Source: Alphaproteobacteria bacterium (GTDB taxonomy: Bacteria > Pseudomonadota > Alphaproteobacteria > Rs-D84). Taken from it: DNA of 33,380 bases. Position 1 is the first letter of the stretch. Each line of letters opens with the position of its first letter. The translations under genes were made by a program, and so were the position numbers. The DNA lies in contig WRJH01000006.1 in the NCBI GenBank assembly GCA_009782315.1, positions 1 to 33,380 on the forward strand, in the 5' to 3' direction. Below the pieces are notes generated by a model that had not been told where the DNA came from, searched no databases, and saw nothing but the letters and a program-made list of their open reading frames with translations. This document shows positions 13,145 to 31,179 of the stretch, piece after piece.

Positions 13145-13211
13145 GGCGCCCGCATTTTTCCTTGAAAACCCGAATATTCTCTGATACAGTCACCGCACGA
13201 TTAGACGGCAG

Positions 13212-13333
13212 AAATTGATTTTAGCGCGGCGGATAATGCGTATTGCGCGGTTTTTAGCAAGGGAGTGTATTCGATATACACGACCGCGATAAAAACAAGC
13301 AAACGCAAATTAGACGCCCGATATAATCAATTT
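13212..13333. repeat. Long imperfect palindrome directly upstream of tRNA-Gly (copy 1)
   Basis: Outer arms AAATTGATT/AATCAATTT; inner GTTTTTA/TAAAAAC; apex GTGTAT-tcgat-ATACAC; similar to 30977-31101. Confidence 0.85.
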
Positions 13334-28983: not shown

Positions 28984-30768
28984 TTAATTCTTCTTGCGAA
29001 TTTGAATATGCACTTCCCGCAGGTTTGTTTCACCGACCGCCGACGGGCTGCCCATCATCAAATCCTGGCCGCGCTGATTTGTCGGAAATGCGACAATTTC
29101 GCGCAGGTTCGGTTCGGAAAGCATTTCACATATCAGGCGGTCGATTCCGAACGCGCATCCGCCATGCGGCGGCGCGCCGTATTGGAACGCGGTGTACATT
29201 CCGCCGAATTTTTCCTTTACCGCATCTTCGTTCATTCCGACGACGGAAAACAGTTCCAGCATGACGCGCGGATTGTAATTGCGCAGGCCGCCGGAACAAA
29301 TTTCGTGCCCGTTCAAAACCATGTCGAATTGATACGCTTTTAATGCCAAGGGGTCGGACAGGTCCAGTTTTTCCAAATCACCCTGGGGGCGCGAAAAAGG
29401 ATTGTGTCCAAACGCGATTCCGGTCGGCGAATTTTCGTCTTCTTCAAAAAACGGAAAATCTTCGACCCAGCATAATTTGAATTCTTTTTGGTCGATTTCG
29501 CACAGTTCGACGCCGAACCGGTCACGCAGGCGCCCGGCGGATTTCGCGGCAACGGATTCTTTTTCACAAATAAAGAAAATGCTGTCGCCCTTTTGCACAT
29601 TGGTCTTGACGAGAATTGCTTCGATTTGTTCCGGGGTCAATTTCTTTGCAACGGGCCCTTTTGGACCGTCTTCCGCAAATACGATATAGCCAAGTCCTCC
29701 CAGGCCCAATTCGGTTTTGGCGAATTCTTCCGTTTTATCGAACCATGAACGCGGCCGGTCCGCAGAACCCGGCGCTGGAACCGCGCGCACAACGCCGCCG
29801 GATTTCACGAAATCCGCAAAAATTGCGAATTCGGAATTTTTGAATATATCCGACACATCCGATATTATGATGGGATTGCGCAAATCCGGTTTGTCCGTGC
29901 CGTATTTCAGCATGACTTCGGAATAAGTGAAGTGCGGAATTTCGGCCACGATTTTCGCATCCGGCACCATGTGGCCGATTAATTCCGGAACCAAATCGTC
30001 GCAGACTCTCTGTATATCGCCCTGTTCCACAAACGACATTTCGATGTCCAGCTGGTAAAATTCCAGCATTCGGTCCGCGCGTAAATCTTCGTCGCGCATG
30101 CACGGCGCGATTTGAAAATACCGGTCGAATCCGGAAATCTGGATTATCTGTTTCCATTGCTGCGGCGCCTGGGGCAGCGCATAAAACATTCCGTGATGGT
30201 ACCGCGACGGAACTATAAAGTCGCGCGCGCCTTCGGGTGATGTCGCGCCCAGTATGGGCGTTTGAAATTCAGAAAATCCGAAATCCCACATTTTGTCGCG
30301 CATGAATTTGATTGCGGCATTGCGGAATAATATGTTGCGGTGCATATTTTCCCGGCGCAGGTCAAGGTAGCGGTATTTCAGCCGCAATTCTTCGTTGGTT
30401 TCTTCATCCCCGAACACCTGGAACGGCAATTGTTCGGATTCGGTCAGGATTTTGAATTCGCGCACCTTTATTTCAATCGCGCCGGTCGGGATTTTATCGT
30501 TGACGGCGGCATTGTCGCGCGCGACGACTTCGCCCGTTATTGTTATAACTGATTCCGGGCGGATTTTTTCCGCACCGGAAAGCGCCCTGTCCGCGATATC
30601 CAAAACGCATTGGGTGATTCCGTAATTGTCGCGCAGGTCGATGAAAAGCAAAGACCCGTGGTCGCGCTTTCGATGTATCCAGCCGGACAGGACGACGGTC
30701 GCGCCAACGTCGGATTTCTTTAATTCCCCGCAGGTATGGGTACGATATATTGATTTTAATGACAGCAT
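28984..30768 (-). CDS. aspS: Aspartyl-tRNA synthetase
   Basis: YRTHTCGELKKSDVGATVVLSGWIHRKRDHGSLLFIDLRDNYGITQ, RYLDLRRENMHRN, FSEFQTPILGATSPEGARDF, GMGID-equivalent GCAFGIDRL; ATG at 30768 preferred over the GTG at 30777. Confidence 0.97.
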   Translation of the reverse strand: MLSLKSIYRTHTCGELKKSDVGATVVLSGWIHRKRDHGSLLFIDLRDNYGITQCVLDIADRALSGAEKIRPESVITITGEVVARDNAAVNDKIPTGAIEIKVREFKILTESEQLPFQVFGDEETNEELRLKYRYLDLRRENMHRNILFRNAAIKFMRDKMWDFGFSEFQTPILGATSPEGARDFIVPSRYHHGMFYALPQAPQQWKQIIQISGFDRYFQIAPCMRDEDLRADRMLEFYQLDIEMSFVEQGDIQRVCDDLVPELIGHMVPDAKIVAEIPHFTYSEVMLKYGTDKPDLRNPIIISDVSDIFKNSEFAIFADFVKSGGVVRAVPAPGSADRPRSWFDKTEEFAKTELGLGGLGYIVFAEDGPKGPVAKKLTPEQIEAILVKTNVQKGDSIFFICEKESVAAKSAGRLRDRFGVELCEIDQKEFKLCWVEDFPFFEEDENSPTGIAFGHNPFSRPQGDLEKLDLSDPLALKAYQFDMVLNGHEICSGGLRNYNPRVMLELFSVVGMNEDAVKEKFGGMYTAFQYGAPPHGGCAFGIDRLICEMLSEPNLREIVAFPTNQRGQDLMMGSPSAVGETNLREVHIQIRKKN

Positions 30769-30772
30769 GGTC

Positions 30773-30901
30773 GGCACCTTTTGTTTTCGTTATCCCAGGG
30801 GCGATGAATTCCACCGCGGTGCCACCCTGATTTTTATCTTGTATGTCCTGCCATCCCTGCTCTCTCGTTTGTCAGACGCGTCATCGCGGGGTCGGTTAGA
30901 C
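30773..30901 (-). promoter_or_regulatory. T-box riboswitch-like leader of aspS
   Basis: Exact core AGGGTGGCACCGCG (30828-30815), antiterminator helix CAGGG/CCCTG (30829-30825 with 30800-30796), AGAGA and GATG motifs upstream. Confidence 0.8.
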
Positions 30902-30907
30902 ATTCAA

Positions 30908-30935
30908 AGTATAGACGACTTTTCCCAAAAATCAA
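30908..30935 (-). promoter_or_regulatory. Sigma70-like promoter of the aspS leader
   Basis: TTGATT - 16 nt - TATACT on the minus strand. Confidence 0.6.
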
Positions 30936-30976
30936 GTTGATTTTCGAATTACTATTGTTATAATGCCTTTCGTCAG

Positions 30977-31101
30977 AAATCAATATGAATGCGTTAGATG
31001 CTGCGTATTGCGAAGTTTTTGACGCGGCGGAGTGTATTCAATATACACGACCCGCGCAAAAACGAGTAAACGCAAAGCAGATAATGAATTCAGATTGATT
31101 T
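30977..31101. repeat. Long imperfect palindrome directly upstream of tRNA-Thr (copy 2)
   Basis: AAATCAATaTGAAT/ATTCAgATTGATTT outer arms; CTGC/GCAG, TGCG/CGCA, GTTTTT/AAAAAC, CGCGG/CCGCG, GTGTAT/ATACAC inner pairs. Confidence 0.9.
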
Positions 31102-31105
31102 ATGG

Positions 31106-31179
31106 GCCCCCATAGTATAATGGTAGAACACGTCCTTGGTAAGGACGAGACGCAAGTCCGATTCTTGCTGGGGGCACCA
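31106..31179 (+). tRNA. tRNA-Thr (GGT)
   Basis: GCCCCCA/TGGGGGC acceptor, CGTCC-TTGGTAA-GGACG anticodon arm, GCAAG-TCCGATT-CTTGC T-arm, encoded CCA. Confidence 0.96.

Follow-up and report, generated by a model that had tools for sequence, protein, structure and literature searches.

The aspS leader analysed here very probably works as a translational T-box that turns on aspS when tRNA-Asp is uncharged, a reading drawn from sequence comparison and folding. The leader lies on the minus strand of the window (the whole 33,380-nucleotide stretch of contig WRJH01000006.1), and the reduced T-box variant that it carries, found in a gut-type alphaproteobacterium and thus in an unexpected lineage, appears to be new. 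The finding matters because nearly all T-boxes reported so far come from Gram-positive bacteria, and because parts that were thought essential are missing here. The original prediction of a translational T-box at this site is supported by the conservation of the pairing partner of the core among relatives, by the lack of terminators and by the predicted opening of the Shine-Dalgarno (SD); the frame of that prediction turned out to be incomplete.

Layout of the aspS leader

Features of the leader are listed in Table 1. On the minus strand, positions 30829-30796 read CAGGG-TGGCACC-GCGGTG-GAATT-CATCGC-CCCTG, followed by AAAAGGTGCC and the aspS start codon ATG at 30768-30766. Helix A1 is formed by CAGGG (30829-30825) and CCCTG (30800-30796), helix A2 by GCGGTG and CATCGC, and the seven nucleotides TGGCACC (30824-30818) make up a T-box bulge of the UGGNACC type. 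The Rfam model RF00230 (its positions 183-216) matches this core at 23.1 bits, which is under the gathering score of 93 bits. The basal helix of Stem I is ATGTCT/GGACAT in the single-sequence fold, and its lower helix is CCCCGC/GCAGGG in the family consensus structure, where covariation was found in the lower and specifier helices. The kink-turn of the window has a GAT bulge (30885-30883) and GA (30882-30881) facing GA (30862-30861), with one additional nucleotide on the 3' side compared with the family.

Table 1. Features of the aspS leader and gene identified in the window.
Feature	Position	Strand	Basis
Sigma-70-like promoter, TTGATT-16-TATACT	30908..30935	-	Consensus scan, 9/12
Ultrashort Stem I (basal helix, lower helix, kink-turn, specifier hairpin)	30843..30903	-	
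Kink-turn and specifier hairpin, CGT-CTGACAA-ACG	30861..30885	-	Family alignment and reading by eye
Specifier codon GAC (Asp) in the 7-nt terminal loop CU-GAC-AA, purine next	30871..30873	-	
Purine-rich linker AAGATAAAAA at the place of Stem II, IIA/B and Stem III	30831..30840	-	
T-box core and antisequestrator	30796..30829	-	Rfam RF00230 match; A1 and A2 covariation
Shine-Dalgarno AAAAGGTGCC, containing the sequestering GGTGCC (30778-30773)	30773..30782	-	
aspS, bacterial-type aspartyl-tRNA synthetase, 594 aa from ATG	28984..30768	-	NCBIfam NF001750 and TIGR00459 above cutoff

The consensus scan places the predicted transcription start at about 30901, at the base of Stem I. Shuffles of this region contain 1.2 such promoter sites on average, so the promoter is weak as sole evidence. 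A complete canonical Stem I concealed further upstream was considered and rejected, with the predicted promoter abutting Stem I and the Rfam model matching the 3' domain only. A search of the window's own genome with the covariance model gave one match in total and thus no further T-box, and near-matches to the T-box motif were not commoner there than in a reversed control.

Several observations concern the region upstream of the leader. A tRNA-Thr(GGT) gene (31106-31179) adjoins the aspS leader in the window in opposite orientation. In many Enterousia (L015, L018, L045, L050 and others) tRNA-Thr lies directly upstream on the same strand as the leader, and the 5' end of these leaders might derive from tRNA 3' processing because no clear promoter follows the same-strand tRNA-Thr. 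Another group (L043, L052, L057, L063, L074 and L115) has, in place of tRNA-Thr before the T-box, a promoter-like stretch with TGTCCCAACTTTTATG or TGTCCCATGATTTTATG that ends in GGGGCACCAG and could form a short hairpin. A dispersed, imperfectly palindromic repeat of about 100-140 nt occurs in the window at 30960-31100 and 13206-13309. Five copies are present in the genome of the window, the others being 76-83% identical to the window copy. Three of the copies adjoin a tRNA gene (Thr, Gly, Arg), and in several related genomes the T-box is preceded by a similar copy.

Pairing of the core with the Shine-Dalgarno and the two folds

The core GGCACC (30823-30818) had been proposed to be perfectly complementary to GGTGCC (30778-30773), which overlaps the aspS SD, and both letters and coordinates were found to be exact. 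When the 25 nt 3' of the core are shuffled, GGTGCC appears in 0.08% of cases. The proposal that this helix excludes the CAGGG/CCCTG fold was likewise borne out: in forced folds the core:SD helix crosses and replaces A1, and the A2 hairpin is compatible with both states. The comparison of the two states identified core:SD as the minimum-energy state (-23.2 kcal/mol, vs -19.1 kcal/mol for the antisequestrator), so that A1 can be forced at a cost of 4.1 kcal/mol. When a longer leader is folded, the OFF pairing of the minimum-energy structure extends past the six pairs, with GGT:ACC before the ATG and CAG:CTG after it. Folding in silico further indicated that the ON fold leaves the SD more open in 10/10 leaders of the direct type, in which the core partner overlaps the SD. 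Single-sequence folding energies did not clearly set the leader below its shuffles, and the case therefore rests on comparison.

Analysis of homologous leaders

AspS relatives were gathered from whole genomes and named contigs. Most come from Alphaproteobacteria MAGs that carry the label Candidatus Enterousia or Rickettsiales, and the record titles of several point to animal guts. A T-box core was identified before the AspS start at 98 loci, representing 86 distinct leaders. Comparison of these leaders did not refute the predicted complementarity: a full six-pair partner of the core is present in 80 of the 86, against a shuffle expectation of 1.7 of 86 and a maximum of 7 in 1000 rounds, and it is all Watson-Crick in 71 of the 80. 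A good partner is missing in four of the 86 leaders (L060, L078, L081 and L083). GGTGCC was not found before the ATG in five AspS leaders of the family that lack a T-box (L034, L035, L079, L082 and L116), nor in T-box leaders outside the family (e.g. L123, L129 and L179).

Covariation was analysed in an alignment of 59 leaders, using 21 pairs and 500 shuffles. The alignment supports four helices, namely lower Stem I, the specifier helix, A1 and A2, with 92.9% of cells paired and double changes at 14 of the 21 pairs; neither value was reached by any of the 500 shuffles, and the signal was lost when the helix partners were slid. Unguided RNAalifold recovered 18 of the 21 pairs and no helix in the linker between Stem I and the core. 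The consensus structure also has no helix between Stem I and the core, so that neither Stem II nor the IIA/B pseudoknot nor Stem III is present there.

Specifier and tRNA match

Among the 59 leaders, the specifier is GAC in 53 and AAC in 6 and never another codon, with AspRS genes downstream. A purine directly follows the specifier in all 59, and the sequence signature of the tandem G.A of the kink-turn is canonical in 52. The specifier helix of 3-4 bp covaries (GC, AU, CG, GU; UA, CG) and closes a loop with the consensus A-Y-U-[G/A]AC-R-[A/C]-C. Reading of two codons as GACAAC is disfavoured, the second triplet being variable (AAC, GAC, ACC, GCC, AAA).

The bulge UGGC is complementary to a tRNA 3' end GCCA. 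This is the 3' end of tRNA-Asn in the window's own genome and of tRNA-Asp in ten relatives. In the MAG that contains the window no tRNA-Asp gene was found, probably owing to the incompleteness of this MAG. Two T-boxes from other alphaproteobacterial genomes carry UGGU in the bulge and not UGGC. Both look canonical and have a strong terminator; from ORF reading, one (L137, genome G417) precedes a DAHP synthase-like gene and the other (L141, genome G040) a tyrosyl-tRNA synthetase-like gene. They may represent horizontal transfer or contamination.

In the proposed mechanism, GAC in the terminal loop of Stem I would pair as the complement of the tRNA-Asp anticodon. When tRNA-Asp is charged or absent, the core would pair with the SD, as in the default minimum-energy fold, and translation would be off. 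Uncharged tRNA-Asp would bridge the specifier loop and the bulge and stabilise A1/A2, and the SD would thereby be released.

Expression platform

No U-tract terminator follows the core in the window, as had been claimed. The scan of homologous leaders for intrinsic terminators gave no grounds for refutation either, with none in 84 of the 86 leaders and weak ones in two; as positive controls, two canonical T-boxes of other alphaproteobacteria gave strong terminators in the same scan (-24 and -27 kcal/mol). These results bear on the alternative of a transcriptional T-box, in which the core pairing would build an intrinsic terminator and the antiterminator would let RNA polymerase pass. This is the mode of the great majority of known T-boxes, and canonical T-boxes with strong terminators do exist in two other alphaproteobacterial MAGs. 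However, a hairpin with a U-tract 3' of the core is lacking here apart from the two weak exceptions, and the core partner sits within the SD in the window and in the other direct-type leaders, which makes transcriptional control extremely unlikely for this leader.

A different alternative accepts SD sequestration as proposed and places the main effect on expression in mRNA decay, or in Rho acting on the untranslated message. Such effects on untranslated messages are known for other translational switches, and the sequence is compatible with them; as the leader showed no dedicated site for RNase or Rho, we regard this version as improbable and retain control of translation itself as the preferred reading.

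Comparison of the position of the core partner revealed two types of leader. In the direct type (9 of the 80 leaders, including the window) the partner lies 2-5 nt upstream of the ATG and overlaps the SD. In the relay type (71 of 80) it lies 38-81 nt upstream of the ATG and the SD is separate. The direct core:SD pairing of the original prediction therefore holds for the window, whereas most relatives would use a relay. Relay leaders contain a third element (anti-SD) that can pair with both the mid element and the SD; the mid:anti-SD pairing has a mean z of -3.6 compared with shuffles. The letters of the anti-SD track the SD type (GGGACC or GGTGT), the own type fitting better in 30/37 and 25/28 cases. 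In the OFF state of the relay, core:mid and anti-SD:SD would form; in the ON state mid:anti-SD would form and leave the SD free. The sequences thus suggest that the relay of core, mid, anti-SD and SD retains the logic of the direct type. In silico, 51 of the 72 relay leaders show the SD opening that this model expects, and the OFF fold is more stable in only 13 of 72, the ON fold usually being the more stable one; for these reasons the relay is less secure than the direct form.

Comparison with known T-boxes

The core with A1/A2, the Stem I specifier, the NCCA complement and the kink-turn signature were all found in the leader, and this set of sequence features points to membership of the T-box class. 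Compared with the canonical transcriptional T-box (RF00230), the window shares the core AGGGUGGNACCGCG, A1/A2, the UGGN:NCCA match, the specifier and a synthetase gene downstream. It differs in having no long Stem I, Stem II, IIA/B, Stem III or terminator; the score stays below the gathering cut-off, and Stem III with its flanking purine motif is missing, although a purine-rich linker persists. Glycine T-boxes (glyQS) also naturally lack Stem II and IIA/B, but they retain a long Stem I with a tRNA-elbow platform, and Stem III.

The translational T-box of actinobacterial ileS (PMC7583486) resembles the window leader in its short Stem I, apical-loop specifier and kink-turn, in the absence of an elbow-binding module, and in predicted control by sequestration of the SD by the core without a terminator. 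The parallel to Actinobacteria drawn in the original prediction is thus apt as regards the probable way of working. It fails as regards host and structure: the host here is an alphaproteobacterium, tRNA-Asp (or tRNA-Asn) is the predicted ligand, and the window leader lacks Stem III as well as two parts that ileS keeps, the IIA/B pseudoknot and a Stem II with S-turn. A review calls Stem III indispensable for T-boxes and reports that tRNA binding by a truncated Stem I without Stem II was barely detectable (PMC7583486). Against that review, the family of the window is either a telling exception or a sign that some other contact has been overlooked.

We lean slightly towards regarding this leader as the smallest T-box known. 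The tRNA would then be read solely by the 7-nt anticodon-like loop (CU-GAC-AA, loop-loop with the anticodon) and the NCCA bulge, with no elbow contact, Stem II, IIA/B or Stem III; a sister genus would use the relay, and tRNA-Asp and tRNA-Asn may both be sensed, which would fit a non-discriminating AspRS.

The two-codon amidotransferase/aspS T-box of Clostridium acetobutylicum (Saad 2012, 2013, as cited in PMC4206432) similarly controls indirect Asn-tRNA synthesis; it has another architecture and lineage, and here there is a single specifier position, GAC or AAC. T-boxes have been listed in Firmicutes, Actinobacteria, Chloroflexi and Deinococcus-Thermus, and Alphaproteobacteria are not among the carriers in those surveys (PMC2494555, PMC3766115). 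The sole Proteobacteria T-boxes in the first survey are those of Geobacter/Pelobacter (then Deltaproteobacteria), which, unlike the window leader, are described as typical and precede leuA (PMC2494555). The translational class of TBDB was searched in Actinobacteria. No literature joining T-box, Alphaproteobacteria and aspS was found, which, with partial literature coverage, is weak evidence of novelty.

Distribution, descent and synthetase context

The covariance model matches 163 of the 183 genomes of the family (109 of the 115 of high quality) and three genomes from other families of the order. A class sample of 385 gave two further, weak matches, and the Rfam model adds three aspS T-boxes in family f95 (G289, G399 and G567). 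In the window and most of the family the specifier precedes the core by 43-50 nt. In nine relatives, including the own-family genus g2, this distance is about 75-145 nt and an S-turn is present, with an F-box CCCGTTA or CCCGTAA in seven of the nine. The element probably descends, by reduction, from a T-box with Stem II and the IIA/B pseudoknot. The simplest reading is that both were lost within the family.

Among 25 genomes checked, none has AsnRS above the curated cutoff and 24 have GatB; therefore AspRS is probably non-discriminating here and charges both tRNA-Asp and tRNA-Asn. In four genomes (G004, G020, G009 and G045) the T-box stands ahead of an archaeal-type AspRS of about 440 codons (leaders L126, L127, L128 and L130), and the first search for AspS gave no bacterial-type hit there. 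The covariance model matches the leaders of G004, G020 and G009, none of which was in its training alignment, at E about 1e-19 to 1e-18. Identification of the ~440-aa proteins as AsnRS was rejected, since all score above cutoff as aspartate--tRNA(Asn) ligase (NF003483). Since the T-box has been kept before a replaced synthetase, the switch tracks function and not gene family. Genome G016 carries an archaeal-type AspRS-like gene in addition to two bacterial-type aspS genes, both of which have a T-box leader of their own (L125 and L134).

The distribution also bears on the possibility that the T-box has decayed and lost tRNA binding, leaving a leader that is constitutive or a simple RNA thermometer. 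The loss of Stem II, IIA/B and Stem III and the poor Rfam score would suit such decay. Strong covariation, a specifier restricted to GAC or AAC, a matched discriminator base, a leader kept before a replaced synthetase gene and the presence of the element in nearly the whole family (163/183) argue against it and leave it very unlikely. A working, reduced T-box remains our preferred reading. This form directly tests which parts of a T-box are needed for tRNA reading, and the relay is an example of how translational output can be re-wired around an unchanged sensor core. Overall, an alphaproteobacterial family appears to control aspS by a T-box, even after replacement of the synthetase itself.
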